Origin: Limonium bicolor
Taxonomy: Eukaryota; Streptophyta; Magnoliopsida; Caryophyllales; Plumbaginaceae
NCBI GenBank assembly: GCA_023374045.1
Contig: CM041776.1
Coordinates: 44,212,171 to 44,276,170 of the forward strand
Direction: 5' to 3'
DNA length: 64,000 bases
The notes below the pieces were generated by a model. That model did no database searches. It saw only the letters and a program-made list of their open reading frames with translations, and was not told where the DNA came from. Positions 7,260-38,977 of the stretch are shown piece by piece. Positions within the stretch are counted from its first letter, which is position 1; every line of letters starts with the position of its first letter. Position numbers and translations under genes: made by a program.

Positions 7260-7278
7260 GGTAATACACAATACCACC

Positions 7279-10890: not shown

Positions 10891-10986
10891 GGCGTGTAAC
10901 ACCAACGAGATAAGTAATGTGATGAGGTAGTTTTCCGCTGCAGATTATTGTAAGTGTGTTATTGTTGGATGGGGTGTTACAAAAAG

Positions 10987-11014
10987 TGGTATCAGAGCGA
11001 AGTATCGCTCTGAT
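10987..11014 (+). promoter_or_regulatory. E2 primer binding site within a hairpin
   Basis: TGGTATCAGAGC (10987-10998), five bases after the LTR, is the plant initiator-Met tRNA primer site. The bases ATCAGAGCG at 10991-10999 are complementary to CGCTCTGAT at 11006-11014, so most of the site can fold on itself. Confidence 0.93.
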
Positions 11015-11783
11015 GACTGAATTACCGAGCTTAGGAAGTACCGAGTTAGGATTTAAGTACTTTGGGTTAAGGGTTGAGTGATAGCGTGAGAGATACGCTA
11101 GTTAGGAACTACCAGTGACTACTGGAAACCTACAATATCCATCCCACCCTCCACAATCCCTGTTTTATAACTTGGGCAACAATGCCAGAGAGATGAAAGT
11201 CCTCTCATACTCGGGAATACCCGATCTGGCTGTTATTAAGTACCTCCAAAGGTACGGAGAACCTGTCATACGGTAGATCCCGAAAACTGGGAATCCCGGA
11301 GACGGTCTCCATCAGAATGATGTTAACCGCATTTAATAGCGAAGAATGAAGGATTTTGTGTATAAGAGAATAGAATTTCTGGCAACCTGGGTCGACATGC
11401 CGAGCAGTCGAGTATGACCAGCTTGCAACGCACCGACCGTGCAACAGGCAGGAAATGGATTAATGGAACCCGAGACGAGTGTCTACGGGACCACAGTTGA
11501 TAAATAATACACCAACGGTATATCAACCGACAAGGGAACTACAACGTAGTGCCCAAGTACGTGGGACGAGCTACAAAGAGAATACAATACTAAGAAGAGG
11601 GGGTCTCCCAGAATGGGAAACACCCTAATTAATGATTATCATGTGAAGACAGTGAGAAGTCACCTAGAGGAGTTGTTATCAAGACAGTAAGATCAGTGAG
11701 GGCCAACAAGGCCACTGATAACAGTGCAAATAAAAACAATACCACAACCGGTATGTGTTAAACCGATAGCCAGTTAGCATGGC

Positions 11784-11803
11784 GCACTTGCCATAGCAAG
11801 TGC
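11784..11803 (+). promoter_or_regulatory. 20-base palindrome downstream of the E2 primer site
   Basis: GCACTTGCCATAGCAAGTGC, 8-bp arms, about 800 bp after the 5' LTR. It is identical in E7 (39804-39823) and a perfect palindrome in E6 (53949-53968). Its position suggests an RNA dimerisation or packaging site, by analogy with retroviral leaders. Confidence 0.6.
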
Positions 11804-14463
11804 TGCTATAACAGGGCTGTTCGAGAATTTATAACCACTACGAAGTACTTGGTAAAGTACCACGAAGTTAAGTGTGAACATTATAACCATGGAAGGGCTT
11901 AACAGCCTGACCTTTATAATTGGATATACACCAGTCAGCAAGAAGCTAGACTTGGTTAAGGTAAGAAGATGTTGTGAAACCATGAAAATTTTTCTTTAAA
12001 CCAGATTTTCACAAACCCTTTTCTTTTCAAACCAGATTTTCTTTCAAACCAACACTTCTTTCCAACCTTCTTTTAAACCAAGCCAGTAAAACCAAGGACA
12101 GTTGACGAGGATACAACGACGGATAAACTTTCCCTCGATTAAGTTCGGGAAGCAAGGAATGAATATTGTCACGGGACAATATAAGGGAGTTGACAACAGA
12201 AGTACTTCACCTAGGCGTGTGACGGACACTACGAGTGTACCAACTGAATTGTGGGACGACCGCACTCCGATAGGAGCTTGTGGGCCTGACAGACCTACTT
12301 ATGGGTTAGTTGGGTAGGTAGCAATGTATCAGTATGGTACCCCACATATGTATACGAGTAGAGTCCGAAACACGGGAAGTAGTCGACTCCGTACTACGGT
12401 CAGCAGTATAAACAAACAAGAGCTAAGGATTACAAGGAATAGTTGAAGCTAAGGAACTCAGTTAAGCTAACTAGACTAAAAGAGTCAGTGAATTCATTTT
12501 CAAGGAAATGTTTAAGAGTCAGGAAGTGCGAAGAGCACTGACTATGTAAAGACATCGTATATATCTTAAGGATCCTCAGGGATAAACATGATAGCTGGAA
12601 CGGTGACCTAGCTGTACATGGCAAGTAGATGACTAATGTGGACACATTAATGTGCAATGAACGGATGAAAATCCCAGAATGAGTACTTACACTACTATGA
12701 AATGTTGATCTTCACAGAAGAAGATAATAAGCCATTAAGAACGCGAACGGCGTGGCTAACTCAATATATCAATAAGTGTGAACTAAATGTAAAAGCATAA
12801 CTTAGCAACACCCAGGAGCAATCCTTGAAGGGTGTTCGCATCAACAATTGTTGCACGAAATGCATGACAGAAACACAGGGTTGAAACTAACACCCAGTTT
12901 AGACATAAGTTGTCAGGAGACGGACTGACAATCCTAAAGGGCATCCCATGAAAGGAAACGTGATGCAACGACTTGTCATGGAGCCCAATATAATATCCAA
13001 ACCATGTAATATTGACAGAGAAGTACATGTGTGTGGACAGCCTACAATGAGCCCAGCTCAAGGCAAATAAGGCTAAGCCATAAGCAAGATATGTTATATA
13101 AATTCGATTGATGGTAGAAGTTTATGTTGTATAAGTGAATAGAGTGGTAAACGAACCACTGCATTAAGATGGGGATACCTCTCGATATTGTGACACCGCA
13201 GGAGCGGTAGTTATGTGAATCAAGTTCAAGAAATATGTTAAGGATGGACGATGTTATTATTGAAAGAGAGCAATTAGCTTAGTAGTATGTGTATAAAGTG
13301 AAGCACCTGGCTGAATAATGCCGGCTTGACGCGAACGATCGATGCTCAAGGAGCATTCAGTAGTCATCCAAAGGAGGGATGAACCATAATGTGAATAATG
13401 TAAGTTTATGTGTGGAAGTTGAGGTGACAGTAGATACGATATAAGCTGATGTTATACAGGGAGTAAGAGCACGGTGCGCAACAAGCGACCGTTGTATAAG
13501 TGTTGTTAAACGATAATGTAACAGATAAGACCAGTTATGAGTTAAACTTAGTAGAGATGCAAGATAAGCGATGTTAAACAGACTGGGCAATAAGCTAGTG
13601 GTAGGTACTGTGTGATGAGGAACTCAGTGTGAATTCCATGGCGAATCGCATAAGGGATTATTGTCAAGAGTTTACGCCTCTGCACTCTGTATGACTGAGT
13701 GTTTTGGTATTGCACTTGCGCAGTAATGACCGAGTGGATAGCTAGGAATTGGAAACATGTTAATTATGGAGGAATAATGTTTAATGGCCGATGCATAGGA
13801 AATGCAAGGCCGCACCAATAAAAAAAAAAGTACTTGTACAGTAAGTGACATGATTAACAGTAAGTGACTACAGTAGCACTAACTGCCAAATATCGGTATG
13901 AAATATACCCCAAATGTTGTAAATAGCTGAGAGAGCACTACACACTAGGTAGTAGCTCAATCTCAACGACAATAAGCCGGAAATGAACAAGTCAATCATT
14001 GTGAAATACATAGCTGTATACACAGTAAATTATCATGGAAGTGGATAGGAAGTTTATAACTCACCGAATTCGCTAACGGTAAGAGATACCACGCGTCGGT
14101 TGAGAAACCATTGTTACCAAGATAAAGGTGACAATTGGGGATATACAATACAGTAAGAATAACAAAAGGAGCAATTAAGCTCTACAGATATTAGAGTTTC
14201 GCAGCAGAAACTAGTGAGCCAGTGATTCAAGCGTTGAATGTACATGGTAAACACGAGTGAATGGCTAATTATTAACGCCTAGAAGCCTAACAGACCAGAA
14301 TCGAAACCAACTAAGAGTTTAAACAAACTCCAATGCGAATTCTTGGTTAGGGACTAAACCGCCAATATGGTTAGATCCTTAATCAGAATCCATTGTGTAA
14401 TAGACCGCGTGGAAGTTAAAACACTTCACGACGGCAGAACATTTAAGCCAATGTTTAGTGATT

Positions 14464-14498
14464 GATTACGTGGGCGTAATCCCTTTTAAGGGGGTAGA
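14464..14498 (+). promoter_or_regulatory. E2 internal polypurine tract with hairpin
   Basis: Palindrome GATTACGTGGGCGTAATC (14464-14481) followed by AAGGGGGTAGA (14488-14498), nearly the same purine tract as at the 3' end but 1.34 kb upstream. Also present in E7, E6 and E1. Confidence 0.65.
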
Positions 14499-15096
14499 GC
14501 GCAAAACCACTTAGTGTATATTACCGTACAAGTGTACGTAGTGTATGTGATTTATATTGTGCATAGCACAAAATTATATTATTGTTTGATGATTGGTGTG
14601 TGTGTTACGTAAACATACACATTCATTCATGGTTTAATTGTGGTAATTGCGCACAAAAGATGCGAATACCATTGTAATAAGTGTGTGTGTCTGTTAACAG
14701 TTGTGTGTCATAGTACAAGTGTGGGGAGTAGAGAAACTCCCGGGGGAACAAAAGCCCCGACAGTGTATAAATGTAAAACCAGGTGTTGTATTTTGATAAA
14801 ATATATGTGTATATATATATATATATATTATATAGTGATTCATAAAAGGGCATGATACCGACATAGAACCTAGTGAGAATAAGATTCCCTAGGCAATAGG
14901 ATTAAAGTGAATGAGGCAACTGATAGACGGAGCTCTATCCCTTGGAGATGTTATGATCATGACTAAAATGATTTAAAAGATAGAAAATTGGAAATGAGTG
15001 ATTTAATTGATGTTTGAAAATGAGTGGGAGGTGGAACTTGATTTGCATGCGATCAGGGAAGCCGAACACAAATTGGGGTGGAAGGATAGTTCAACA

Positions 15097-15115
15097 CTGA
15101 TGCTGATCACATCAG
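15097..15115 (+). promoter_or_regulatory. Conserved CTGATG/CATCAG palindrome (E2)
   Basis: CTGATG and CATCAG flank a TGATCA core. It lies within a block of roughly 120 bp that stays recognisable in E1, E6, E7 and E8 although no protein is encoded. Confidence 0.55.
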
Positions 15116-15487
15116 GGTTGGATGACTCTTGAAACTCCCTATAAGTGGTCACAAATAACCACGCTAATAAAAGAAGCAAAGAGCTTAAGTTGGACTTGGA
15201 GTTGTGTGTGTTTTCAAAAGGATTTTCAGTTGGTATTTATAAAACGTTGATAGATACTTTACATAATTAAAGTTCTCTTACTTAACCTCACAAGGAAATT
15301 TTAAATTTAAGTGATTGTTTTAATCTCCCAAAGGCACGGGGACGGAAGGTGTCCATCGCGACCGGGTTCTGCGGGATCACAGTGTGTATGTAAAAGATAT
15401 TTTTGATTGTTATATGTGCTATGACATGTTGTGTGGTATGTGTAATAAATGTTATTTTGACCTTGATCTCCTAAAAGTGTATGCTAT

Positions 15488-15724
15488 TGAGACCTATGAG
15501 TCTAAATGTGTTGTGTTACATAGACTAAGTGTCTGAAGACTGTTTGTTATGGGGACCTATGGTCCAAAGGTTGTGATGTTACCCAAGACCAGTGAGTCCA
15601 AGGGGTTGTTATGTATGTGTAAGTGTTGTTAAGATACCCGGACCATAGAGTCCGAGGTTATCATGTGGATATGTTATGTTATGTGTGGATGTGAATGTGT
15701 TGCCCGGACCATTAAGTCCGAGGT
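15488..15724 (+). repeat. Ladder of small GGACC...GTCC hairpins (E2)
   Basis: Six short units of the form (G/A)GACC-N5-6-GTC(C/T)(G/A)AGG follow one another near 15491, 15523, 15551, 15584, 15638 and 15703. Each can form a stem of 4-6 bp. E7 has the same series (43468-43700) and E8 a version on the other strand (60400-60515). Confidence 0.6.
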
Positions 15725-15805
15725 TGTGATGTAAAGTGTGTTTGGTTATGGAAGTTTATTTCCAAGTGATTCCTGTGTTCTAATCTAATGATGTGTGAAA
15801 AGTGT

Positions 15806-15840
15806 GAACTTCGAGGACGAAGTTCTTTAAGGGGGGTAGA
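15806..15840 (+). promoter_or_regulatory. E2 3' polypurine tract with hairpin
   Basis: GAACTTCG / CGAAGTTC with loop AGGA (15806-15825), then TTAAGGGGGGTAGA (tract 15829-15840) directly before the 3' LTR. The stem overlaps the relic codons of the polyprotein tail. Confidence 0.88.
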
Positions 15841-15841
15841 T

Positions 15842-17565
15842 TGAAATACCCCAAACCTTGATATGTTGCTAACATTTAACTATGGTATGTAAAGGCTAAA
15901 AAGTGCCTTGGAAACATCAGTGAACAATTTAAACCACAGTAAATGCAATAAAGCACTAAGATACAGTTTGAGCAAAAACATGCTCTAAGCTATGAGTGAA
16001 CTTGGTTAGGACCCAAAGAGCCTACCAAGACTTAATAACATTTAATTATGACTTTATAGGGCTAATTAAGTCCTTAGCAAACCTTGGTAGACAATGAAAC
16101 CAAACAAAACATAATAAATACCTTAAAGTCAATAAGAGCAAAAATGTGCTCTAAGCTTGGAATAAATTTGTATAAGACCTAATGGTCATACCTATACCTT
16201 ATAAATATGTTAATGAACATATTAAATCAATTACCAAGAAAACCAAGCTTGAAAACAAGTTAAAACACAAATGTGCTTTAAGAAGTCTTAAAGCACGTTT
16301 TTGAAAATTGTCTTGTAAATGAGTTTTGAATGGCTAAATGTCCATCATTACTCTTAATTAACATGTGTACTATATAGTATCACATTTGGGTGGCTATATC
16401 AATGGGAAATCAAAAATTTCACTTCTATGTGCCTTAGTTTGTGAATAGTAACTTTATAAGCTAGTTTGTAACATATAATGTTATAAGTAATTAAATGGTC
16501 GACAAAGACTATTATACCTCCTAGGCATAGGGGCCGGTTTTTCATGGTGTGAGTCACCAACATGTAAAAGAAATCAAATAAGTGAAGTAAAACTTAAAGT
16601 AAAGTACTTTTGCTTTATAAGTTACAAATATCTTCTTAAAGCAAACTTACCTCATTTCTCTCATTCCTTTCTCCATTTCACACGGCTCCACTCTCTTCTT
16701 CCTCTCTTCTTCTTGTTCTCTCTCGGTAATACACAATACCACCATGGAAGTCCATCTTTGACCACATGTAAAACCTAGCTCACTTAACCAAATCAAGAAC
16801 AAACACCACCATTCTCTTAGTTAAGCCAAGCTCTACAATCTTGTCTTTTCAAAACTACAAAACCTCCATTTCGGTGCCAAGGGAAACCACCATGGGAGGA
16901 GCTTGAGCTCACCTTTTCACATATTCATGTTCTCCTTTGCTTCAAGGTAAGGAAACTCAAAGAAAATCCATGTTTCCTCCATGTTTTCATGTTGACCGAA
17001 AATTCACCTCACCATGGTGTATTTACCTTGCTTGTTTTAGCTTCATTTGAATCTTCCAAGGGCTAGGAGGAGTCCTCTCTTGATACTTGTTCAAGTTCTC
17101 TTCCAATTCCAAGGTAAAACAATTACCTTAATGTGTTAAAACAATATGTGTAACTAGGGTTTACAATGAGATGAAGCATAATGCTTGAATACTCATTCTA
17201 TTATTTGTACATTGTTTAGAAGTTGACAAACAACCAAATGCCCCACCGGTTTTACAAGGAAACAAGAAAGAAGTTGTGAGGAAAAAGAGGTAAACAAGCT
17301 ATCTCAATGTAGTTTAAATGCCTTAGGAAAAATGAGCTTGATTTGCTTAATAAAATACCTAAGGAGCCAATGGCAAATGAGCTAGCAAAATGCTCTCAAG
17401 GAGTTTATTAAAGGAATATGTATTGTTGGGTGTATTTGCAGGTCAAAGGCATTAGTATGTGGGAAATTCAGTGTTTATGGTTTATGTTATTTAAGGGCCT
17501 AAGAGCCATGTTATCTAAGGGCCTAAGTGCCAAGCAATTTAAGTTATGCACTATATTGTGATGTA
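15842..17565 (+). repeat. E2 3' LTR, first 1.7 kb
   Basis: Same sequence as 6365 to about 8101. It breaks off at the run of N, so the palindrome array and LTR end are not seen. Confidence 0.95.
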
Positions 17566-18065
17566 NNNNNNNNNNNNNNNNNNNNNNNNNNNNNNNNNNN
17601 NNNNNNNNNNNNNNNNNNNNNNNNNNNNNNNNNNNNNNNNNNNNNNNNNNNNNNNNNNNNNNNNNNNNNNNNNNNNNNNNNNNNNNNNNNNNNNNNNNNN
17701 NNNNNNNNNNNNNNNNNNNNNNNNNNNNNNNNNNNNNNNNNNNNNNNNNNNNNNNNNNNNNNNNNNNNNNNNNNNNNNNNNNNNNNNNNNNNNNNNNNNN
17801 NNNNNNNNNNNNNNNNNNNNNNNNNNNNNNNNNNNNNNNNNNNNNNNNNNNNNNNNNNNNNNNNNNNNNNNNNNNNNNNNNNNNNNNNNNNNNNNNNNNN
17901 NNNNNNNNNNNNNNNNNNNNNNNNNNNNNNNNNNNNNNNNNNNNNNNNNNNNNNNNNNNNNNNNNNNNNNNNNNNNNNNNNNNNNNNNNNNNNNNNNNNN
18001 NNNNNNNNNNNNNNNNNNNNNNNNNNNNNNNNNNNNNNNNNNNNNNNNNNNNNNNNNNNNNNNNN
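17566..18065. other. Assembly gap of 500 N
   Basis: Exactly 500 unknown bases, a typical fixed-size scaffold gap. E2 sequence stops on the left and E3 sequence starts on the right, so the true length and the junction are unknown. Confidence 1.
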
Positions 18066-18854
18066 TAATAATGGGAATGGGTATACCAATTTAAAGAAAC
18101 CAAAATAATGTATTAGAATTGTAGTTGTGAAAGTTTGGGTATGTGTGAACAAGCATGTGGATTGTAGGCCTTAGAGCCAAAGAATTGTGTATGTGTATTG
18201 ATATTGTGTTTTGAGGAGGAGTAATGATGTATTAAGATTGCTTTGTATTGCTGGTAGGACCCTTGTATGGGTGTGGCTAGAATAGGAATGATTTTGGTGA
18301 TAATGGGTATGTGTGGATAAGTGAGGATTGTAGGCGAACTATGGCAAAATTTTAGTAGGAATATGTACATTTGTGGATGACTTGGTGAATGGGAGAACCA
18401 AGATGTGTATTGGGTTTATTAGAGATGTTTAGTAACCATGGAATGGTAGTAGTGGTATGTGAATAAAAGAGTGTAAAATCTGTAGCAAGAAGTGTAGAAA
18501 ATGCATTGTAGAAACTAGGAAAAATTAGTGTGCAAGATTTGGTAAAAGAGAGTTGACTTGGGTATAGATCTATGTAGTTGCTTGGAAATGAATTGGAATG
18601 GTAAGATGGCATTAGAACAAAGTGCAAAATGCAAAGAGGAGTGTAAGAATGCACAAGTGTGCAAAGTATGAAAATGGTAGTGGGAATTTGTAGAGATTGA
18701 GCTAGAAGTTGAGTAAGTATGGGACCATGGATTTAAGGAGTTTTAGTGAGTGTTTAAATATGTACAAAACATGTGGAAAGAGCATGGAATGATTGGAGGT
18801 GGATTAAGGATTGAATTGGGGTTGAAAAATGATGTATGTTGCAGGTTTTAGCAG

Positions 18855-21056: not shown

Positions 21057-23751
21057 CAAAGATGAAGCTTATCTAACCAACTCCCCTGAAAGTCTAAGGC
21101 ACATGCCCGAAGCATGTCCTCCAGTGTCTGGATGGTCCTTTCTGTCTGACCGTCGGTCTGAGGATGGAAGGCGGTACTCAACTTCAATTCTGTACCCAAC
21201 GCTTCCCGTGTAGCTCTCCAGTATCTCGAAAGAAATCTGGTGTCGCGGTCAGATACTATGGTTTTCGGGACTCCGTGATGTCTGATAATCTCCTTGTCAA
21301 ATAGCTCTGCAAGTTTCACTACCTTCCAGGTGTCCTTCATCGGTATGAATCGGGCAACCTTGGTAAGGCGATCAACTACAACCCAGATCATGTTGAGTCC
21401 TCCCCTGGCAGGTGGGAGTCCTACAACAAAATCCATGGAGATATCATGAAATTTCCACTCCGGAACTGGCATTGATTGTACCATTCCGCCCGGTCTACGA
21501 TGTTCGAATTTTACCTTATGACATGTTAAGCATCTCAATACAAATTCTGTCACATCCGATTTCATTCCAGACCACTAGAAGTACCTCTTCATGTCTTTGT
21601 ACATCCTGGAGGCTCCCGGATGGACTGACAATGTGGAACTGTGTGACTCTCGCAGGATGCGATCCCTTAGCTCAGCATTGCTTCGGGGGACGCATAGCCT
21701 GCCATTCAACCGAATCAAACCGTCTTCATGAACCTTAAAATCATATTTCTTCTTTTCAAATGTACCATTTTCGATCTTTTGTCTGATTTCGGTTAAGTAA
21801 GGGTCGCTCAACTGAGCGTCTCGCACCTCGTCAACCAAGCTAGAAGAAGCGAGTAGCGAATGGAGCGAGTGTGCTCGACGGCTCAGGGCGTCGGCTACAA
21901 TGTTTGCCTTCCCTTCCTTATACTGTAGGTCGATGTCGTAGTCTGAGAGAAACTCCATCCACCTTTTCTGTCTCAAATTCAGTTCTTTCTGTGTGAATAC
22001 ATACTGTAAGCTCTTGTGGTCGGAGTAGATGGTGATGCTTACCCCATAGAGATAGTGTCGCCATATCTTCAAGGCGAAGACAATGGCTCCTAACTCTAAG
22101 TCGTGTGTCGGGTAATTCTCCTCATGCTTTTTCAGCTGACGGGAGGCATAAGCTACAACCTTGCCATGCTGCATGAGTACGCATCCCATTCCTTTGCCCG
22201 ATGCATCACAATATACCTCAAATCCCTCTGTGCCCTCTAGAGGAGTAAGGATGGGCGCTGAGGTCAATGAGTCCTTTAGGCTCTGAAATGATAACTCGCA
22301 CTCGTCTGTCCATACAAACGGTGCATCTTTCTTCATCAGTGTAGTAATGGGCTTAGCGACTTTCGAGAAGTCCTTCACAAATCTCCGGTAGTAACCGGTT
22401 AGACCAAGAAAGCTCCGGATGTCGGTAACAGTCTTAGGTCTAGGCCATGATCGTACATCTTCAATCTTAGAAGGGTCAACTGAGATACCTGCGCTCGAGA
22501 TGACATGACCAAGGAATGATACCTGATCTAGCCAGAACTTGCATTTGGAGAACTTCGCATACAACTGGTTCTCGCGCAGTGTCTCTAGCACTTTCCTCAA
22601 ATGAATTTCATGTTCCTCTGCTGATTTTGAGTATACTAGGATGTCATCAATAAATACAACAACTGAGGTGTCCATCTGCTCACTGAATAGTCGATTCATG
22701 AGGTCCATGAATTTTGCCGGTGCGTTTGACAAACTGAATGGCATAACGGTGAATTCGTAGTGGCCATATCTGGTACGGAATGCCGTTTTCTCAATATCTT
22801 GCTCTTTGATGGCGATCTGATGAAACCCAGAACGGAGGTCGATCTTGGAGAAGACTGATGCTCCTTTCAGCTGATCAAATATGTCGTCGATGCTTGGCAA
22901 CGGGTATTTATTTTTGACTGTGACCGCATTCAGCTCGCGGTAGTCAATACAAAGTCGGAGGCTACCGTCCTTCTTCTTCACAAAGAGGACCGGTGCTCCC
23001 CAGGGTAATACGCTCGGGCGTATGAACCCTTTGTCGAGTAGGTCACGTAGTTGTTCCTTCAGTTCAGTCATTTCAGCAGGTGACATGCGGTACGGTGCCC
23101 TAGCAATGGGACCGGTACCTGGCAAAAGATCAATTTCAAATTCTACTACTCTCCGAGGTGGCATGCCGGGTAGCTCCTTAGGAAATACGTCGGGAAATTC
23201 GGATACAACCGGTACATCCTCACTGAACTCTGGATCTCTCTCCAGGTCTTGTACATAACAAAGATACACTTCATGGCCCTTTCTGAGCTCCCGGTACATC
23301 GCCATAGCAGATATGAGTGTGGTTGAAGGCTCTCTCGGTCTCTGGCGGTAAGATACGGTAACCCCAGAAGGACTCTTGAGCAGTAATCGATGCTCGGCGC
23401 AGAGGATTCTACCCTTGTGCCGCTCCAACCAATTCATTCCGATGATTAAGTCGAATCCCAATCCATTAAACTCGATGAAAGAGATGGGAAACACTTTGTT
23501 TTTGATTTCTATGGTGGTTGATTGATAATACTTGGTGCACTTTACTCGCTCCTTCGATGGGAGAGTAACCACAAAATTCGGTAGCTCATCCGCATCTAGT
23601 TTCAACCTCTTCATGAAAGATGGTGATACGAAAGTGTGAGAGGCGCCAGAGTTGAATAACACATTGGCTTCAATGCCGTTCACTAGGAAGGTTCTCGTTA
23701 AGATGGTGCCGCTTCTGCCGGCTTGTGCTTCGGTGAGGATACTCAGGTTAC
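21057..23751 (-). pseudogene. pol: E4 pol: protease, reverse transcriptase, RNase H, truncated integrase
   Basis: A long frame runs from the probable exon start at 23751 to a TAG at 21575-21577, then resumes in the same frame to 21057. Counting from the first Met (23683): protease NSGASH at 11-16, where family members have Asp in place of the first Asn, so the catalytic residue is lost; reverse transcriptase about 200-395 with KIDLRSG near 280 and FIDDIL near 344; RNase H with YCDASG near 491, LELGA near 529, SDHKSL near 554 and ADALSRR near 597; integrase zinc region starting after 680. The TAG replaces a residue that is usually Trp. Beyond it the integrase core keeps Asp (DFVVGLP), Asp (SDRDTRF) and Glu (GQTER). 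The frame stops being integrase after GSWLDKLH at the E3 junction. The sequence is of the Tekay/Del type by eye. Confidence 0.93.
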
Positions 23752-24807
23752 CTTCGGTACCGAGTCAACAACCTATTGAAGTCACAATTGGATAAGTATT
23801 GATGGTGGACACAAGTGGAATTTAAATCAACACTGCTCTTTATTGATAAACCAACCATCATACATACCGTGTCTCTAATACTAGTAACTAATAGATTACA
23901 TGATACTATGAATTTAATACTTCCTAAAGGTAAGGTTTAGGCGTCCTGGTTTCATGTGTGTGGCATTGATTATTGCTGGTGGTGCCATATTCAACTTGAT
24001 CTTGTTGATCCCGTGATACACCATCCTATAGTTTCCACCCATGATTAGGACATCTCCTGATCTCAATACCAATTTCTGTGCGAGGTCCACACGCTTCTGC
24101 TCATTATACATAAAGATGGCGTCATCACCAATGGACCAAGACACTACGGGCACTCCTTGTTCAAGAGATTCCGCTGTCTCGTCCTTGTCTTAGTGTAACC
24201 CAAGTCGTCCTTCTTTCTCATAGAAGTTGACGATACAGAGGTCCGCTTCAAGTGCGGGGATCGGTTCATGTTCACATTGTCGTGTGAGTTCTACTGATTG
24301 TGTGACGAGTGTCTGAAACTCTAGAGGTATTGTCGGTGGCGTTGCTCCGTCTTGTGTTCGTGTCTCTTGGTATGTCTTGGTATAAGGATTCCAATCCTTT
24401 CCCAAGCACATCATCTTCAGCTTCATCTTCGCTCCACCAGGGAATTCGGGTGTATAAAATCCTCCTTGACCCGTTCCTAGTTCGTTGCATCGTCGAATGA
24501 TTGAAATTTGGGCTTCGGGTGTCAGGTATTACCTTAATAGAATCATACCTGGTCGGATGACTTGACACTGCTCGCTGGTGTAGTAGTGATTGGTGATGTC
24601 GATCTCTTCTTGATTCAGGTTTACCGGTATCGGATAACAGATACTATAGCTTCCTATGGTTATAAATTTCATCTACAGTGAGTACTAGTTTCGACTACTT
24701 CATTTCATGCTCAATACACACTTCAATTCATTTACTCATGCATTCACTCATACGATTACTCTAACACTTAGACATGCTTCTCAAGGATTAAAGGTTCGGA
24801 TAATTAC
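23752..24807 (-). other. AlkB-bearing insert or long intron between gag and pol
   Basis: Removing 24807 to 23752 (minus strand) joins the Gag tail to the protease leader without a frame break: the exon before ends with one base of a codon and the next supplies two. The left edge has a donor-like CCCAG/GTAATT. The right edge, CCGAAG, is a weak acceptor. GGTAA occurs at both joints, so the segment could instead be an insertion with a 5-bp target duplication. A second phase-compatible acceptor, AACCATAG at 24654, would fuse Gag to AlkB. Confidence 0.6.
23914..24672 (-). pseudogene. AlkB-type 2-oxoglutarate/Fe(II) dioxygenase domain inside E4
   Basis: One frame of about 252 codons on the gag-pol strand, from a possible ATG at 24672 to a natural-looking TAA at 23914. 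It has the AlkB landmarks in order: GTGQGGFYTPEF near residues 79-90, KMMCLGKDWNPYT, CIVNFY, the metal motif His-x-Asp in GRLGLH-x-DKDE, PVVSWSIGD, SGDVLIMGG, the second iron His in MVYHGI, and the 2-oxoglutarate-binding end PGRLNLTFR. It looks most like plant ALKBH1-type proteins. Such enzymes oxidatively remove methyl groups from nucleic acid bases. Two in-frame TAA codons break it: one near residue 50 and one exactly at the x of His-x-Asp, where Gln (CAA) is usual. Both fit a C-to-T change. The iron and 2-oxoglutarate ligands are otherwise kept, so decay looks recent relative to capture. A possible AATAAA lies downstream near 23839. Confidence 0.9.
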
Positions 24808-26312
24808 CTGGGCCGGATTTAGAACCGGACTCGTCACGGTCTATGACATGCAAGACAGGCTGCCTTTGAGGTGCACCCCTCTGAGGTCCCCGGGATCCCT
24901 GTCCCTGTGGTGCCTGCTGGGTCGGTGCATCGCCCGATGCAACCTCCTTGCCTTCCCTCTGCTTGTAGCTTTGGAAGTTCCCTTTTGGTTTGGCATTTTC
25001 GGGGCAGAAGTTGGCTCGGTGTCCGGGCTTCTGACAGTTGTAGCACCGGATTTCTCTCCCTTGGCAATCCTTGCCGGGATGGTCTTGGTTGCACCTTCGG
25101 CACATGTAGCTGCAGCCGTCAGGGTAGTTCTTGGTGGAACCGGAGCCAGAACCTGAGGTTTAGAGGGTTAGCACATGTGTGCGTGGATATACTAGATATG
25201 ATACTCGTACGAATACGATTTTGTAATAGAAGTTTACCCTTAGGTGGGTGTGATCTCAGTGGCTTTGCGGCCACCGGTGCAGAAGAACCTAGTTGAAGCA
25301 GCTCAACTGGTTTGCCCTGCTCAGCATGGGCACTGCTCTCACTTGGGAATTTCTTTTGGGATTGCTGAAAGAAATTTCCCTTCTTCTTTTTCCAGCTTTT
25401 ACCTTGGTTCTGCTCCTCACCATTGGTGTTCTTGTTGTTGGCTTTGCGCTTCAGCGCGGTTTTTTCATCCCTTAATTGGCAAGTGATCTCAACGCGAGAA
25501 GCCGCGTGATAACACTCCTGAAGTTTCAGGTATTAGCCGGGATTCTCGTTTAAGATAGGATAAAGAAGAGATTCAAGGAATTCAAGGAAATTAAGGAATT
25601 GAATTGATACTAAGGGTTAACCGACATTTACCTGAAGAGAGGTAAATCGAGTGTAGCCCATACCGTACCGAAGGCGATGGCTCAGACCGCCATAGAAGCG
25701 ATCGACCAACACCTGGCCGGTGTATCCTAGATCGGGTAGAAGACGGAGGATAGAAGTGAAGGTTCTGTAGTACTCATCGACAGACATCTTCTCTATCATC
25801 TTCAAGGCATCCAGCTCTAGCCTTTTCTTGGTTTTCACATGCTCCAGATAGTATTTGGAACGGAGGAGTGAGGCAAAGGACTCCCAGTCGAAGGTGGGGT
25901 CATTGACATGCTCATGCTTGACCAGCTTCCACCAATCCATGGCTTCATCCTTCAGATAGTAGGCAGCAACTCTAACTCGAACTCCAGCAGGAGCTTCGAG
26001 GGTTTCAAACGCCGTCTCCATCTCGGAGATATAGGCTTCGAGCTTAGCCGGATCACTCTCGCCCCTGAAGCAAGGAGGGCGGAGTTCCGCTACAGCTTTT
26101 ACCCAGTTAGCTTCTCTGGGTGGAGGGGGAGGGATTGGTCCCGCTTGGTTCTGTTGGTTTTGCTGATTTTGTTGCATCGCGGTGATTACTTGTGGTAGCA
26201 TCTGCGCTACCGTGGCGGCGACGATCTCGGCTATCGTCTGCGCGCCGGGTCCGTCAGATGTCTCTCCCCTAGGTCGGCCTCGACCTAGTCCTAAGATCTG
26301 AACATTTAGCAT
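24808..26312 (-). CDS. gag: E4 gag: capsid and nucleocapsid, split by two short introns
   Basis: Three open blocks join in frame: 26312-25632 (227 codons), 25517-25238 (93 codons plus one base) and 25152-24808 (345 bases). Block 1 has a Gly/Arg/Pro-rich start, a Gln-rich run, then a Retrotrans_gag-type region from about residue 70 (ELRPPCFRGE, KDEAMDWWK, YYRTFTSILRLLPD). Block 2 is a basic Lys-rich linker. Block 3 carries two zinc knuckles: a canonical one, CYNCQKPGHRANFC (CX2CX4HX4C), preceded by a shorter CRRCNQDHPGKDC. The product would form the particle shell and bind the RNA. No stop interrupts the joined frame, unlike pol and AlkB. The start at 26312 is the first Met after the primer site leader. 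Confidence 0.85.
25153..25237 (-). other. Inferred gag intron 2 (85 bp)
   Basis: Minus-strand donor CCTAAGG/GTAAAC, branch-like GTGCTAAC, acceptor AACCTCAG. It joins codons across one base plus two bases and leads directly into the zinc-knuckle block. Confidence 0.7.
25518..25631 (-). other. Inferred gag intron 1 (114 bp)
   Basis: Minus-strand donor CTTCAG/GTAAATG, T-rich body with a GGCTAATAC branch-like site, acceptor AAACTTCAG. Read through, it gives a stop after four codons; spliced, the Gag frame continues in phase 0. Confidence 0.7.
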
Positions 26313-26492: not shown

Positions 26493-26520
26493 ATCAGAGC
26501 GTTACTACGCTCTGATACCA
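26493..26520 (-). promoter_or_regulatory. E4 primer binding site within a hairpin
   Basis: Minus-strand TGGTATCAGAGC (26509-26520), five bases from the LTR, the initiator-Met tRNA site. As in E2, ATCAGAGCG and CGCTCTGAT (26493-26516) form a 9-bp stem. Confidence 0.93.
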
Positions 26521-26525: not shown

Positions 26526-29186
26526 TGTAACACCCCTACCGTTAATCCTATGCTTACCGTCCAATCATCCTCTTAATCCAATCAGTTCATAGCTGAAGAC
26601 TACTACTTACTACGGCGGGTGATACAACGCCGCTAACCGCCCATACGGCTAGCTAGGCTTACCTTACTTACAATCACGGTCTGATGCTCAAAGCATACCG
26701 AGCTACTACAATTACTTACCCATTCCAAAAACATAACATACTTACAATCCTGGATCACCGAGTATTTTAAAGTATCAAATTACATCCTTTACCAATCTTT
26801 CCAAAGAATGAGTTTCTAACCGCTACTCATCTATACCCAATCTCCATCCTATCAATATCCAAAAAGGTGTACCCCATGGTACACCGGCTATCAAAAAGCT
26901 ACAGCCGTGTACTACTTAGTACACCATTCATAATTCATCAATTACAATCCAAAAAGAAGACAAAAGAAACAAGCTACATCTCTTCACAGTCTTCATCCTT
27001 CTCTTGTACCTGCGTGCAGTAAAAACATTGCCCCAAGGGGCTCAGCAAAAGCTGCGCATGAACTCCGCATATACCGCGTGCTAGCTAGGGCACGCCGACT
27101 AATTAAGGTCAAATAGGCATGTGGTTCATTTTTATCATACATACATGCTTACATACAACATACATTCACATACAATACTTCATACAATGCAAGATAGCAA
27201 TACAATAGCACACACACTTACTTACCTTCACCGAGTTAGCCAATTTACGCATCCGGGTTAATCGGAATGCTTGTTACTCCTTTACTCATTACACGATGCT
27301 TACACATTCTCTTTCATACTTTACTTTCCCCATACTCATTTACTTACTCTTACTTTCTTACTCTTACTCATGTTAAGCCGGTATGGCCTCTGGGCAGGGA
27401 CTACACCGTCCCACCACCAGGCTTTGGGTGACTCACTAATCCAGGATGCTACCCATTTAAGGGGTTTGGGCCGTGGACCAGTTTAAGAGCCAGGAATTGG
27501 AGTCAACCTCTTATGGCTCCGCATCCTCACGCGTGGCCGAAACTATATCGGACTTCTACTCATTCCAATTTAATTACCAATTTAAGTTAGATTGGTTAGC
27601 TTGTTAGGAATTAGTTAGAAGTCCAATCACAATCACAATCGGTCACAGTACCTTACCACATACATACACACATTCATATTCATCCATACATTTCATGAAT
27701 TATACAAACTAAGATTTAAGAAAAATATTCACATCATACAACACTACATATTCACAAGTATGCATAGTAACTCCGATTCTTGCATTTATCTTATTTGGTG
27801 ATCAATTAGCACACAACACACAAATCAGAGTAACCAAGATAGCATACGGGGCATGAGGAATTCATACCGTTCACCGTTGTACTTGTATCCCAACTTTCCT
27901 TCGGTGCTCACAAATCAAGTCCTATGTGATTAATTTAACTATCATTAACTTAATTCGATTACTCTTGCGTTTCCTAAGTCATACTTACTAAGTCCTTTCC
28001 ATTCTTACACTTACACATTATTACTTACTCTTCTTTACTTTAAGTTTATTCCCTTACTTAACATTGGTACATTGATATATGTACATTTATATATGTGGGT
28101 ATACATATATATATATATATGTATAATGTATGTTATTATTATTTAATTTAATTTTTTTTTGTATGACTCGACTGACCTTACCCAGGGTCGGACCCAAGGT
28201 CAGTCGAAGTCATTAAGGTACTACACTGGAAAATTACAGGGCCGACCGACCTTGCCAAGTCCGGTCCCAAGGTCGGTCCATTCCAGTGAGTTTTGGTTTC
28301 GAAATTCTGGAGTCGACCGACCATGCATGTCCGGTCCCAAGGTCGGTCCATTCCAATAAGTTTTGTTACAGGCGAATTTCAGGCCGACCGACCTTGCAAG
28401 TCCGGTCCCCAAGGTCGGTCCATTCCAGAAGGTTTTAAGACGGGAATTTTCTGGCCGACCGACCTTGCAAGTTCGGTCCCCAAGGTCGGTCCATTCCAGA
28501 AGCTTTTCGCCCTTTGTAAATCTGGGCTCGACCGACCTTGCAAGTCCGGTCCCAAGGTCGGTCCGGCCCAGTATTTGCATTTTTATTTCTGTTTTCAGTT
28601 CTATCTTTCACCCATTACTTCCCCATTGTCCCTGCACTTATTCCCACATGTTTTATCACTAATTACACACTCTAAATCATGTTGGTTCATTCCTTAATTC
28701 ATTACACAAATCCTATACGCTTACACTCTTGTTCTTCCCAAATTCCATTCCAACACTCACATAGTTTCTTCTCTAGTTGCATTTTGCTACAAATTTCCAC
28801 TCTAACTCTCTCCATCTATAACTCCCTCTTCTATTGTCATTTCTAACACTCCTAATGCATTACAATACATTATCTACCTCTCTCAATCTACTCATCAACT
28901 AGCTCCATTCAAAATCTGTTACAAGCACCTGTTTTACACCTAGTTTCTAGTTCATTAAGTGTTCTATTCCTAGGCAAATTTCGCCATAGTCTCCCCTATA
29001 TTTTGATACTCTCACCACATTGTTTTCACTCACATTTTTAACATTATCTCACATGTTTTCAATAACCATATATATACAAGCTCCTATACACAATACCAAT
29101 ACTAAAACACTCTTAAAAATTCCTGCACTTAACAACCCAATTCCCATTTAGGTTTCAACAAGTTTTACATGCCTTTTAAGGGTTTA
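26526..29186 (-). repeat. E4 5' LTR, start missing
   Basis: Minus-strand LTR ending GGGGTGTTACA at 26526. It holds the same ordered marks as the other families: palindrome array (28170-28563), donor-like site near 27867, CCCCTTGGGG plus acceptor-like GCACGCAG at 27010, and the terminal stem-loop at 26633-26652. At 29186 it is cut off by E5 and does not resume on the other side, so its promoter end is lost. Confidence 0.85.
28170..28563 (-). repeat. Phased palindrome array of E4 (6 copies)
   Basis: Copies at 28170-28205, 28244-28278, 28315-28348, 28386-28420, 28457-28491 and 28530-28563; starts are 74, 71, 71, 71 and 73 bp apart. Arms are GACCGACCTTG and its complement around a CCGGTCC core. 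The spacers share CATTCCAGAAG and a T-rich stretch. A (TA)n tract lies just to the left at 28076-28125. Confidence 0.93.
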
Positions 29187-32100
29187 TGTAACACCCCATC
29201 CAACAACATACACATAACAACATTCTGCAGCGAAAAGTATACTACTTCACATAACTTAACTCGTTGGTGTTACACGCCGTTAACCACCCACGTGGCTAAC
29301 AAGGTATTACATTTACATTGTACCGGTCTGATGGACTAGATTCCCGAGCGACTATACATTATTATCCCTTTCCATTAACAACAAAACAACACATCACATA
29401 CAGTCTTCCAACAGTACCGAGTATTTACAAACTGATGCCGATAACAACTTCGGTCTTACTACACCTACTGTATATATATTTAACTTACATGATTACCCAT
29501 GTACAATGTCTACCCGTCCTACTCTTGAACGGCTTCCAGCTCTCTGTACTTGAAATAGGAAAAGAAGAGAAAGGGTGGCCCCCAAGGGGCTCAACACCTT
29601 TGCTGGTATGGTAATCCCGCAGCCCACATGCTACCGGGCCACACACAACTAATTATCATCTTAGCATGCGATTGTTTATATTTAAATCATGCATGCAACT
29701 GTAAACACACAACACATAATCATTTCGCCTCAATGGGCTCAACAAACGGATAATATATCCTTACCTGATAAGTCACTCATGGTATTCATTATCCCTAGAG
29801 TGTTCCTCCTCTAATGGAGCTACTTCCTTAATAGACGACACTTACCCTTAAGTCGGGTTATCCTTAAACGCCTCTCATCACAAACTGGGATTCATTTCCA
29901 TGATCTACACACTCCATATTTTACAACATATAACATTCCTCACATAACAAAACATAACAACACTTCTCACGTTTCGACGTGCACATGATAACATCGCAAT
30001 AGGAATTGCATTACAACAACATCACATAACATAACGGGAACGGTCCTCTTGGAATCGACCCCAACGTAGCTAATTCACTGGTGAGCCTAGAGAATGGTGT
30101 CACCCTCATGGTAAGCTCGTTATACAATAACAACAACACTCATTACCGTCCTAATAGTCGGACGAGTAACTTAAGTTAAGATGGTTCGGGTTTGGAGGCC
30201 CGAACACACCACACAAACACATGTTCCCCCTAAACCGATCTTAAGTCAGAATAGCTAAGCTTTGGAATAAGCTAATGGGAGATCATAACCCGTGAGGGAA
30301 ACAACCATAACAGAGAGAAGGGTAAGGCTAAGAAGGATACCCACTCCCAAACAACGCGCGACCGGCCAAACCGGATTCCTCACCACTGTTAGTGCATACT
30401 TACTTTTAGATATTAGTTAGAACCCCACTATGGAGTCTATCACATCTACACACCATACAGTATTACAACTGGGTTAAACACACAAGGGAGATCCCTACAT
30501 TCACATACACATATCACACAATTAACACACACATAGCCGTGGTTAGAACGTCCCATGGTTCGGGTCGTTTACTCCGAATACCGAACTCTCTTGTGATCCT
30601 AGACTCAGTTAACTAAGGTTAACACTTCCGAGGTTAAATGGTATCGGAGTTGAACACGCTACATATATGAATTACTGTAAACTCATTTCATGTTTTATCT
30701 TACAACGTGGCAAACATACAGAAAAAACACATTGGCATACAAGCCGGTGTAATCCGGTAGGACACAGGTTGCAAGAAAACCATACCTGTCACCGGAGTCC
30801 ACTTTACCATGTCCACTTATGTTCCTCGAGCATTCTCGAACAACTGACAACATTACATGTATTTTATTAACATCGGGGTAACATGATTGTTTAAAGTCTA
30901 ACACTTATAACTTTTCCCCGTTAACTTAGTTACATAACTTCACTTTTTAACTTGTTTACTTTTACATTTTAATACAACCTTTCCCCCACTAAATTGTCAT
31001 TATAACTCACTTAACGTGTCCTCAACATTCTTATAACATCATTACTTAGTAATCACCATTTTTAGGCAACTTCTCCCACCTTAAAACAAAGTTTTTGGTC
31101 CATACAGTGGCCTGTCCGAACTTGTGTCCGGACTTCCAAGTTCGGACACAAGTCGAGACTCAAAATGAATACAGACGCCTGTCCGAACTTGTGTCCGGAC
31201 TTCGGAAGTTCGGACATGGGTCGAGGAAAATTAAATGAAGAAGCAGGTACGTCCGAACTTGTGTCCGGACTTCCCAAGGTCGGACACAAGTCGAGACTCT
31301 GAAAATTTTTACGCAACAGGCCTGTCCGATCGTCCATGTCCGGACGGATGTTCGGACAAAGCAAAACACTCATTTTCTAAGCCTTTAAGCACTTAACCAA
31401 TTTCACCAAATTCTCCTAAAGCCTCATAATGTTTCCTAACATCATTTGGTACATCAAACACACCTTTAGCCATGTGCTAAACTCTTTAAATCACTCACCA
31501 AAACCATCTTATCATTCACAAATTTCTTACAAAATTCCTAGCACTTGGGATGTTTTCTCCTAAGATTTCTAAGTGGTAGTTCACCAATAATGACCACTAC
31601 ACCAAGGTGTTTCCTCTACACCTTAACATCATCTCAACTTCTTTTCTTACTAACTAAATCTCCTTTTCACAACTTCTTAAAATTCCTTACTCAAAACCCT
31701 TACCTAAACATCATTCCCTCCTTATTCATCAACATTACCAACCTTAAACAAACTTCTCCAAGCAGGGTGGCTGAGGCCCCTTGGGTGCTGAGCCCCTTGG
31801 GGGCCACCCTTTCTCTTCTTTTCTTATTTCAGGTACGAAGAGCTGAAAGCCGTTCGAGAGTAGGATGGGGTAGTCGTTGTACATGGTAATCATTTAAGTG
31901 TATATATATACAGTAGGTGTAGTAAGACCGAAATTGTTATCGGCATCAGTTTATAAATACTCGGTACAGTAGGAAGGTATGTGTATGTTGTGTTGGTAAT
32001 GGAAAGGGGTAAATATGTGTAGTCGCTCGGGAATCTATTCCATCAGACCGGTACAATGTAAATGTAATAGCCTTGTTAGCCACGTGGGTGGTTAACGGCG

Positions 32101-32188
32101 TGTAACACCAACGAGTTAAGTTATTTTAAGTAGTATACTTTCCGCTGCAGAATGTTTTTATGGGTATGTTGTTGGATGGGGTGTTACA
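29187..32188. mobile_element. E5: head-to-head inverted LTR ends of the E2/E7 family
   Basis: 29187 to about 31762 is the reverse complement of the last 2.5 kb of an E2-type LTR. From about 31785 to 32188 the last 400 bp of the same LTR type run forward. So both outer ends are LTR 3' ends (TGTAACACCCC...GGGGTGTTACA), and the terminal 400 bp form an inverted repeat. The flanks (GTTTA left, ATACA right) do not match. Left is E4 LTR and right is E6 LTR entered 540 bp in. It looks like a product of rearrangement between insertions, or a misassembly. Confidence 0.85.
31114..31357 (-). repeat. Phased palindrome array of E5 (4 copies)
   Basis: Copies at 31114-31147, 31181-31215, 31251-31285 and 31324-31357, spaced 67, 70 and 73 bp, of the E2/E7 type in reverse. 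The last holds the GTCCGGAC core variant that is first in E2. Confidence 0.92.
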
Positions 32189-34450: not shown

Positions 34451-37400
34451 TGAAATACCCCAAACCTTGATATGTGGTTTAAATAGCAAACTATGTTATA
34501 TAAAGGCTACAAGTTCCTTAGGAACCTCAGTGACAATTTTAATCATAGTAAAATGCAATAAAGCATTAAGACACAGTTTGAGCAAAAACATGCTTTAAGC
34601 TATGAGTGAACTTGGTTAGGACCCAAAGAGCCTACCAAGACTTAATAACATTTAATTATGATTTTAAAGGCTAATTAAGTCCTTAGGAAACTTTGTTAGA
34701 CAATGAAACCAAACAAACACAAATAAATACCTTAAAGTCAATAAGAGCAAAAATGTGCTCTAAGCTTGGGATAATTTGTAAAAGACCTAATGGTCATACC
34801 TATACCTTATAAATATGTTAAGGAACATATTAAATCAATTACCAAAGAAAACAAGCTTGAAAACAAGTTAAAACACAAAATGTGCTTTAAGGAGTCTTAA
34901 AGCACGTTTTTGAAAATTGTCTTGTAAATGAGTTTTGAATGGCTAAATGTCCATCATTACTCTTTAATTAACATGTGTACTATATAGTATCACATTTGGG
35001 TGGCTATATTAATGGGAAATCAAAAATTTCACTTCTATGTGCCTTAGTTTGTGAATAGTAACTTTTATAAGCTAGTTTGTAACATATAATGTTATAAGTA
35101 ATTAAATTGACAATAAAGACTAAATTACCCTTCTAACTAAATGGGGGCCGGTTTTTCAAGGAGTAAGTCACCAAGTTGTAAAAGAAATCAAATAAGTAAA
35201 GTAAAACTTAAAGTAAAGTACTATTTTGCTTTATAACATAAATATCTCCAAAAGCAAACTCATCTTCTCATTTCCTTCTCTTCTTTCATTTCACACGGTT
35301 CTTCACCTTCTCCTTTCTTTCCTCATTTACGATTTGCAACAGCCCTCTCTTCTCCATCTTCATTTCCTTGCCAAATCCAACTCCATGCTCCAAATCAAAT
35401 TCTAAGACCATATTTGTCTTAGTTAGGTCAAGCTCTACACTTCTACCTTTTCAAATCTCTCAAGAGCTCAATTTTGGTGCCATGGAGAATCACCATTGAT
35501 GGAGCTTGAGCTTGTGTTTCTACACATTATTACTCTCCTTTGCTTCTAGGTAAGGAATCTCAAAGAAAAATCAAGTTTCCTCCATGTTTTGTGTGTGACC
35601 GAAAATATTCATTGATGGAGCTCCTTGTGTTGCTTTGTTCTAGCTCCATTTGAATCTTTCAAGGACTAGGTGGAGTCCTCTCTTCATAGATATTCAAATT
35701 CCCTTCAAAGATCAAGGTAAAACAACTACATTAATGTTTTTGAAATAATGTAAACCTAGGGTTTACAATGAGATGGAGCTTAAAGCTTGAATACTCATTA
35801 TGTTGTTTGTATAATGTTTAGTAGTTGGCAAGGAACCAAATGCCTTACCGTTTTTACAAGGAAACAAGAAAGAAATTTGTGAGGAAAGAGGTAAACAAAC
35901 TACCTCAATGTAGTTTAAATGCCTTAGGAAAATGAGCTTGAATTGCTTAATAAAATACCTAAGGAGCCAATGGCAATGAGCTAGTAAAATGCTCTCAAGG
36001 AGACTAGTAAAAGAACATATGTATTGGTGTGTATTTGCAGGTCAAAGGCATACTTATGTGGGAAATTCAGTGTTTATGGTTTATGTTATTTAAGGGCCTA
36101 AGAGCCATGTTATTTAAGGGCCTAAGTGCCAAGCAATTTAAGTTATGCACTATATTGTGATGTAGTGCTTAATGTGTGAAGTTTGTGTGTAAAAATGTTC
36201 TTGATGGATTTTAGGTGTTTTGAATGAAATAAGGTAAAAACCTAAGTGTTTGGATGTGAGTATATACAAGAGAAGCTATGGCCAAATTGGGAAAATGTGT
36301 GAGAAGTTCTAAGTGTTTTAAATGGTCTTGTGAACTAGGAAGTGTTAAAGGTGAATAAGTGTTTACTTGAGAAAAAACATGTGTTAAGGTGATTTAGAGT
36401 GATGCAAGGATTTAGGTGTTATCTAGGAAGTTCTAGGAATTCAAGTTGTTTTTGAGAATGTATTTAAGTCTTGGAGGAATTTGTTTAAGTTTAGATAATG
36501 TTGATATTCAAGGAATAAGTGATGTTTAGTGGGATGTGAAAAAGGAGGTTAGTTAGTAAGAAAAGATTTTGAGAGATGATGTTAAGGTGTAGAGGAAACA
36601 CCTGGTATAGTGGTCAATATTGGTGAAATACCACTTGGAAAAATTAAGGAGGAAGTGTAAGCTTGGGAAAGGAATTGTAAGAATGACATAAGGAGTTTTG
36701 ATATGTAGGAAAGGATGTTTGAATGATGATGTTGTGTGGAAGAAATGTCTTGGTATAATGGTTAAATTGGCATGAATCATCACTAAGGGACTTAGGAGTA
36801 TAACTATAAGTGTTGGAGGCTTTGGAGGAATTTGGCTAAGTGTTTAAAGTGTAGAAGTTGAGCATTTTGCCGCGTCCGAACTTCCGTCCGGACATGGAAG
36901 TTCGGACAAGCTCTGTTGGGTAAAGGATTTTCTCATTTTCGAACTGTGTCCGAACTTGGGAAGTCCGGACACAAGTTCGGACGTGACTGTTTCTATCTGG
37001 GATTTACTCTCGAACTGTGTCCAACTTGGGAAGTTCGGACACAAGTTCGGACAGGCCACTGTATGGACCAAAATTGTTGTTTTAAGGTATAGAAATGGTG
37101 TGTAATGATGGGGATTGATAGGTAATGATGTTATAAGGTTGTTAAGGACATGAGGGGTGAGTTTTAATGGTAATTAAGTGGGTGAAAAGTAGTATCAAAA
37201 TGTAAAAGTAAAACAAGTTGAAATGTAAAGTTATGTAACTAAGTTAACGGGAAAAGTTATAAGCGTTAGACTTTAAACAACACATGTTACCCCATGTTAA
37301 TAAAAACACATGTGATGTTAACAGTTGTTCGAGAATTGCTCGAGGAACATAAGTGGACGTGGTAAAGTGGACTCCGGTGACAGGTATGGTTTTCTTGCAA

Positions 37401-38972: not shown

Positions 38973-38977
38973 AAAAG

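Follow-up and report, generated by a model that had tools for sequence, protein, structure and literature searches.

A copy of a Ty3/gypsy retrotransposon carrying an AlkB dioxygenase reading frame is located in a 64,000-nucleotide stretch of the Limonium bicolor genome (GenBank assembly GCA_023374045.1, contig CM041776.1, forward-strand positions 44,212,171 to 44,276,170), referred to here as the window. On the minus strand, the Pfam scan gave the order gag, zinc knuckle, AlkB, protease-reverse transcriptase (RT)-RNase H and integrase. The parts of the element, in window coordinates, are the following:

26526..29186, minus strand: remainder of the 5' long terminal repeat (LTR), broken off at 29186/29187 and terminating in ...GTGTTACA at 26526
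26510..26520, minus strand: primer binding site TGGTATCAGAG, identical to the site behind the 5' LTR of the family copies L035 and L037
25617..26312, minus strand: gag, first open part, 231 amino acids (aa); PF03732 (26312-25620), E=2.9e-15, and PF19259, E=7e-12
24788..25159, minus strand: nucleocapsid part of gag with a CCHC zinc knuckle (25159-24794); PF00098, E=1e-5
23773..24807, minus strand: inferred GT-AG intron of 1,035 nt with the whole AlkB frame inside, based on conserved borders, intron-less copies and the layout in the related families L082 and L083
23914..24672, minus strand: AlkB frame (ALKBH1-type), 252 codons plus stop; ATG 24672-24670, TAA 23916-23914; PF13532, E=1e-40
24529..24531, minus strand: first premature stop in the AlkB frame (TAA), read from the sequence
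24190..24192, minus strand: second premature stop in the AlkB frame, at the middle residue of the HxD iron motif
21575..23764, minus strand: pol with protease, RT, RNase H and the start of the integrase, 729 aa open, ending with TAG 21577-21575; PF08284, PF00078, PF17917 and PF17919
21059..21574, minus strand: integrase part of pol; PF17921 and PF00665, both under the Pfam cut-off in this broken piece

The first-pass annotation of this DNA had placed an AlkB frame of about 252 codons here, on the strand of gag and pol, and its limits are exact to the base. The PF13532 match corresponds to a 204-residue AlkB core, the halves of which were also matched separately (4e-13 and 5e-21). The metal and 2-oxoglutarate motifs that it had called recognisable were located as the iron ligands His (24195-24193), Asp (24189-24187) and His (24015-24013) and the two Arg residues at 23943-23941 and 23925-23923, the residues of an Fe(II)/2-oxoglutarate enzyme. 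The frame is present but not open in the window copy, being interrupted by the two premature stops, the second of which is replaced by a sense codon in 29 of 29 family copies selected by their protease. A further stop (23767-23765) lies directly behind the intron acceptor, gag is split across several frames, and likeness to other copies is lost beyond 21059, the remaining pol and the 3' LTR being missing. No LTR pair around the copy was found within the window; the 5' LTR remainder resembles the 3.9-kb LTRs of complete copies over 28127-26526 and 29186-28606. The primer binding site is presumably of the initiator tRNA-Met type. The window copy is dead, with broken AlkB, gag and pol and a truncation in the integrase.

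Relatives of the element were searched in the 2.92-Gb assembly, the eight largest contigs of which are 136-540 Mb long. Two sets of 29 copies each were compiled, one chosen by the AlkB sequence (L004-L032, besides the window) and one by the protease (L040-L068). The first-look candidates (49,703 and 54,203) are not copy numbers, a better lower bound being the 3,214 places that match the junction of intron and pol. Among the best 150 AlkB matches, window included, 149 span the whole 204-aa query and one spans 203 residues. Identity is 93-96% when the window is set aside, and the core is free of stops in 141 of the 150. AlkB-chosen copies have a zinc knuckle upstream in 28 of 29 cases and protease-RT downstream in 28 of 29 (both in 27). 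The protease-chosen copies contain AlkB without exception (29/29), together with the knuckle in 26 and with an open AlkB core in 18. AlkB is thus not confined to the window copy.

Copies retrieved with 10-kb flanks revealed LTR pairs in three of three cases (the second LTR of L033/L034 is interrupted and extends past the end of the retrieved sequence). The LTRs are 3.8-3.9 kb long and the elements about 14.2 kb, with 5-bp target duplications TTAGC (L035/36) and TTGAC (L037/38). The two LTR pairs measured diverge by K=0.030 and 0.019, corresponding to insertions about 1.1 and 0.7 million years ago at a substitution rate of 1.3e-8 per site and year. Gag followed by protease-RT-RNase H-integrase on one strand was also identified by Pfam in L034 and L036. 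Behind the integrase of L034, the one copy scanned for it, a chromodomain-like match was detected (PF00385, E=8.5e-5; its 22.8 bits fall short of the curated 25.1). From this domain order and match, the element is probably of the Ty3/gypsy chromovirus type; it may belong to the Tekay (Del) clade.

The AlkB core is under purifying selection. In the protease-chosen set, the ratio of non-synonymous to synonymous substitutions (dN/dS) was 0.170 (codon bootstrap 0.122-0.242), compared to 0.956 and 1.392 in the shifted frames of AlkB and 0.695 and 0.659 for non-coding intron parts read in pseudo-frames. Values for other parts of the same copies were 0.22 (RT), 0.31 (nucleocapsid) and 0.078 (protease, on which the choice was based). 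The AlkB-chosen set yielded 0.090, a value biased low (n=27 copies, excluding the window, L023 and L024). AlkB variants common to at least three protease-chosen copies are mostly synonymous (13 non-synonymous to 40 synonymous), while singletons are not (93 to 48; p=3e-7), and protease variants in the AlkB-chosen set are similarly distributed (shared 11:39, singletons 105:54). This pattern argues that AlkB, like the protease, is under constraint during the active phase of the element and degenerates once a copy has inserted. The two iron His residues and the Asn and Tyr on the 2-oxoglutarate side are conserved in 29 of 29 protease-chosen copies, the iron Asp in 28 and the two Args in 26 and 27. 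Judged by these substitution patterns, the AlkB frame is kept by selection. Neither of the two refutations named in the first-pass annotation, presence of AlkB in this copy only or absence of purifying selection among copies, was borne out.

These values bear on the possibility that AlkB is a passenger, a piece of a host gene copied along unused. The two stops in the window copy, the existence of copies without AlkB and the broken AlkB core in 11 of the 29 protease-selected copies would fit such a passenger. Against it stand the dN/dS of 0.17 in copies not chosen for AlkB, the mostly synonymous shared variants as in the protease, and the retention of the HxD motif and of open frames in families that have reached saturation at synonymous sites relative to the window family (see below). 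A passenger insertion is largely refuted by the dN/dS, the shared-variant pattern and the divergent families, and is highly improbable.

The first-pass annotation had described the AlkB as captured between Gag and protease. The position was confirmed, but the frame lies inside an apparent intron that had been missed, and it is not fused to Gag. Cutting out 24807-23773 joins gag and pol in one frame. In the protease-chosen copies, the borders are conserved, 26 of 29 having AG|GTAA where gag ends and 29 of 29 having AATAG before the protease. In the window copy the nucleocapsid frame stops at TAA 24790-24788, inside the putative intron. In 54 of 54 copies examined, a set that includes the window but not L023, L024, L040, L042 and L048, the gag frame stops 55-129 nt upstream of the AlkB ATG. 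AlkB is therefore no extension of Gag, and without splicing the gag frame does not lead into Pol. No fused Gag-AlkB-Pol protein was found, as the gag frame stops first in these copies and none of the 20 AlkB protein matches inspected has a Gag or Pol domain. An acceptor GAAG|GTAAC, which would also keep the frame, was set aside: the intron-less copies use CAATAG|GTTG, and no search for the alternative join was made.

A 27-mer across the join was located at nine places in the genome (six exact, two with one mismatch and one with two), compared to 3,214 places for the unspliced acceptor pattern of equal length; the reversed-pattern controls gave 0 in both searches. The Gag-Pol frame crosses the join in all nine intron-less copies, over 82 to 309 codons. 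In the protease-side tree (67 rows), the intron-less copies L070 and L071 are nested among AlkB-bearing copies, while six others form another clade (support 95/92) and L076 is placed on a long, rearranged branch; the intron-less copies thus comprise at least two separate groups in this tree. In alignment, the difference between L070 and L071 is 0.000 on one side and 0.002 on the other. Most simply read, spliced RNA would have undergone reverse transcription on at least two occasions, and the AlkB-holding stretch is strongly suggested to be a spliced intron.

According to the opposite view, there is no splicing, Gag and Pol are made otherwise, and the intron-less copies are deletions between AGGT repeats or leftovers from before the capture. 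Several observations favour it and weigh against a spliced intron. The evidence for splicing comes from DNA. AGGT is common to donor and acceptor, and a deletion or recombination between these repeats would give an identical join. The six-copy clade of intron-less elements could by itself be a pre-capture lineage, and only one of the nine intron-less copies is open throughout its 927-bp piece. In the protein tree (outgroup P0118), resolution is too poor to root the intron-less clade, L070 and L071 are split, and L071 stands beside L076. Contrary to this view, L070 and L071 are nested among AlkB-bearing copies apart from the six, a GT-AG intron with its phase and the frame kept is found at the same place in L082 and L083, and the gag frame would end before AlkB in all 54 copies. 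The divergent older families with AlkB, moreover, argue against a pre-capture origin of the six-copy clade, the capture being older than the family. Absence of splicing is improbable on balance.

The divergent families were found with a motif pattern of cellular-type ALKBH1, which occurs at 20 places in the genome. Seven were read, comprising one host gene and six element-type AlkBs. The host piece (L079) is 70% identical to its Carya homologue in the last part and has an apparent intron directly behind the first iron His, in the HxD region. The L079 27-mer occurs at three places on contig C3, of which one was read; the host ALKBH1 may be duplicated. The six element-type AlkBs are 54-81% identical to the window family. 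A knuckle is present upstream in four of the six and a protease downstream in four (both in three), whereas L081 has neither within 1.6 kb. L082 and L083, the two checked for an intron, contain a GT-AG intron (982 and 1,042 nt) of equal phase with the frame kept and an early stop in the gag frame; that of L082 is a phase-1 intron, in frame, in the layout of the window family. Between the AlkBs of the window family and L082, synonymous sites are saturated (proportion of synonymous differences 0.77, of non-synonymous differences 0.20). The iron-binding HxD motif and open frames are nevertheless retained in families at this distance.

In the rooted AlkB tree (29 rows; L083 left out because of its broken frame), the element AlkBs and the database proteins P0001-P0006 form one clade (98/95), and the host ALKBH1 is placed among angiosperm ALKBH1s (97/92). 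The tree comparison with host ALKBH proteins proposed in the first-pass annotation thus places the element AlkBs apart from the ALKBH1 of the host. The element AlkBs branch outside the sampled land-plant ALKBH1s, a sample that does not include shorter ALKBH1 paralogues. Two earlier trees were less firm, with a support of 89/85 for the element AlkB clade in one and no resolution in the other, which was midpoint-rooted. The possibility that AlkB was captured recently from the host gene now present was rejected, as L079 groups with angiosperm ALKBH1s and the element AlkBs form a separate clade. Since the divergent families share AlkB, the capture predates the window family. As far as these alignments and trees indicate, the capture is old and did not take place from the present host gene.

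The same pairing may exist outside this genome. The AlkB protein P0002 and the Pol protein P0118 (70% identical to that of the window) lie on contigs of equal stated length (26,561 bp), presumably a single contig, which suggests an AlkB-Pol pairing of the same kind elsewhere. PF13532 was found in none of the 120 protease-RT relatives listed (the best 120 of 7,969 scored), and in 16 other polyproteins inspected the zinc knuckle leads straight into the protease without AlkB. Viral contigs gave no match to a single AlkB protein as query and two distant AlkBs (28-29% identical) with an alignment as query. A single ancient capture of an ALKBH1-type gene, before the divergent families and those behind P0001-P0006 split, would have been housed in the intron and would couple the demethylase to the packageable genomic RNA, as a second, independent capture beside that in Phalaenopsis (see below); we put this forward tentatively, with the chances slightly below even.

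The best sequence match in the PDB was rice ALKBH1 (E=6e-64; about 50% identity over the core), and no ALKBH5 chain was among the matches at E<=0.001. For the fold comparison, the relative P0002 was used and not the window's own protein. Its predicted model (mean predicted local distance difference test score, pLDDT, 86) resembles rice ALKBH1 most (5xoi, E=3e-29), followed by bacterial AlkB (about 1e-17), mammalian ALKBH1 (about 1e-12) and ALKBH5 (about 1e-8). By sequence and predicted fold, the element enzyme is of the ALKBH1 type and not of the ALKBH5 type. For rice ALKBH1, a role in N6-methyladenine in DNA (6mA) and chromatin is described (PMC10469495), for a tobacco ALKBH1-like protein demethylation of N6-methyladenosine (m6A) in RNA (PMC12736721), and the host protein ALKBH9B is described to promote mobility of the ONSEN retrotransposon via m6A removal (PMC12786077). 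Given the reported 6mA and m6A activity of plant ALKBH1 proteins together with ALKBH9B and ONSEN, the preferred reading is that the enzyme would strip adenine methylation from the element's RNA or its single-stranded cDNA.

Two other roles of the enzyme were considered. General repair, in which the enzyme would clear alkylation damage such as 1-methyladenosine or 3-methylcytidine from the RNA or cDNA of the element, in line with proposals for viral AlkBs, would agree with bacterial AlkB structures being the next best matches, ahead of mammalian ALKBH1. The closest relatives, on the other hand, are plant ALKBH1s with reported m6A and 6mA activity (PMC12736721 and PMC10469495), and such a role is unlikely, if by no means far-fetched. 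The enzyme might also act at chromatin and, like rice ALKBH1, protect element copies or host genes from repressive marks. Rice ALKBH1 is reported (PMC10469495) to impair the binding of Polycomb repressive complex 2 and trimethylation of histone H3 at lysine 27, and the element protein appears to be the same type of enzyme by sequence and modelled fold. It is, however, without the long N-terminal part of the sampled plant proteins, where AlkB begins around residue 337 of 605 (P0082). A chromatin role is distinctly improbable.

We regard it as likely that the window copy is a degraded Ty3/gypsy element, probably chromovirus-type, of an old lineage with its own ALKBH1-type dioxygenase, housed in an apparent spliced intron and presumably demethylating the element's own nucleic acid. 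Unspliced RNA would give Gag, with the stop just inside the intron, and retain the AlkB frame; spliced RNA would give Gag-Pol and lose AlkB. As AlkB could be passed to new copies only via unspliced RNA, splicing would set the ratio of Gag to Gag-Pol while the RNA destined for packaging is the one that encodes the demethylase. AlkB might be translated by reinitiation, the Gag stop being 55-129 nt upstream, or from a shorter RNA. The enzyme would remove N6- or N1-methyl groups of adenine from element RNA or single-stranded cDNA, and may thereby counteract a methylation by the host that impedes translation, packaging or reverse transcription.

Some further points speak against this explanation. 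Both copy sets were taken from the top-scoring end of very long lists of candidates. Constraint is weak over the first 48 AlkB codons (dN/dS 0.574, 0.339-1.067), and by eye an AATAAA follows AlkB within the element. Intron-less copies without AlkB that resemble small families are present, and AlkB is therefore not strictly needed in cis.

The first-pass annotation knew of no such arrangement as a standard gypsy feature. A published cousin exists in Phalaenopsis (PMC9289625), from which the element described here differs in enzyme type, size and layout. In that study, AlkB-bearing gypsy elements are reported from two Phalaenopsis species only among 121 angiosperm genomes, even without the filter of the study, and the enzyme of Gypsy_Pa_2799 is of the ALKBH5 type and active in vitro. 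Common to both is a high-copy Ty3/gypsy element with an extra AlkB-superfamily open reading frame (ORF), separate from gag-pol and with the cofactor residues kept. In Phalaenopsis the enzyme, related to ALKBH9/10, forms the end of a 565-aa ORF2, while the 252-aa enzyme described here is of the ALKBH1 type and encoded in an apparent intron that separates Gag from protease. The Phalaenopsis element, moreover, is Tat/Ogre-like, 25.5 kb long with 6.4-kb LTRs, and has gag-pol as one ORF of 2,640 aa, as opposed to about 14.2 kb, 3.8-3.9-kb LTRs, a weak chromodomain match and several divergent families here. AlkB-bearing gypsy elements as such are already known, but enzyme type, element and gene layout are different in L. 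bicolor. Searches of the open-licence literature, which did not extend to subscription papers and preprints, yielded no ALKBH1-type capture, no chromovirus with AlkB and no AlkB frame in a gag-pol intron. With amendments on precedent, enzyme type, intron and age of the capture, the earlier interpretation of an AlkB captured as part of the element is supported; the element may have expressed or packaged the enzyme.

In Ogre elements, an intron between two polyprotein parts is reported to be spliced from some of the transcripts (PMC6317226 and PMC12786077), and the apparent intron described here may be comparable. It differs by its position between Gag zinc knuckle and protease and by the complete, conserved enzyme frame inside, and splicing is inferred here whereas it was measured in Ogre. 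An intron between protease and RT, as in Ogre, was not found; in the window the intron is upstream of the protease, and protease and RT form one open frame. Rice OsALKBH1 (PDB 5XEG/5XOI) shares the fold, as modelled for P0002, and the metal and 2-oxoglutarate residues at about 50% core identity. Cellular ALKBH1s are host genes, with an apparent intron in the HxD region in L079; the element AlkBs have no intron there and form a clade of their own. The AlkBs of plant RNA viruses (flexiviruses and closteroviruses, PMC9289625; potyvirus P1, PMC9452765) likewise belong to selfish RNA-based replicators. They are described as domains of viral proteins, the comparison being one of description.

Retrotransposons rarely keep extra genes, and a gene kept for long would mark a real obstacle in the life cycle. 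If the explanation is true, a second capture with another AlkB type, element and layout would make it likely that adenine methylation by the host is a general defence against retroelements, and two independent demethylase captures by plant retrotransposons would point to adenine methylation as a general barrier. As related AlkB-bearing and AlkB-less copies coexist naturally in one genome, the barrier idea is testable through the intron layout, with RNA methylation, splicing and copy number comparable between them.

Additional features were observed in the window. The AATAAA on the minus strand at 23839-23844, behind the AlkB stop and ahead of the intron acceptor, might derive from the 3' end of the captured mRNA. 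Tandem-like repeats of about 70 bp are located within the element LTR (28189-28564), and internal repeats occur in the LTRs of other copies as well. An inverted LTR-like sequence of large repeats (29187-32188) adjoins the 5' LTR break, and the locus looks nested. The large repeats at 34451-48420 and 6365-17565 are bounded by LTR-like stretches of about 4.6 kb, one of them cut by a gap, and inside them no frame reaches 150 aa except gap artefacts. Behind their first LTRs, 38962-39045 and 10971-11054 show 86% similarity to the end of the AlkB element's LTR and its primer site, and these repeats may be its non-autonomous relatives. A run of 500 N is located at 17566-18065, and the long frames at 17468-18152 on both strands cross this gap and are artefacts. 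A stretch of 413 bp (2688-3100) is 96% identical to its own reverse complement, a long palindrome and perhaps a foldback element.
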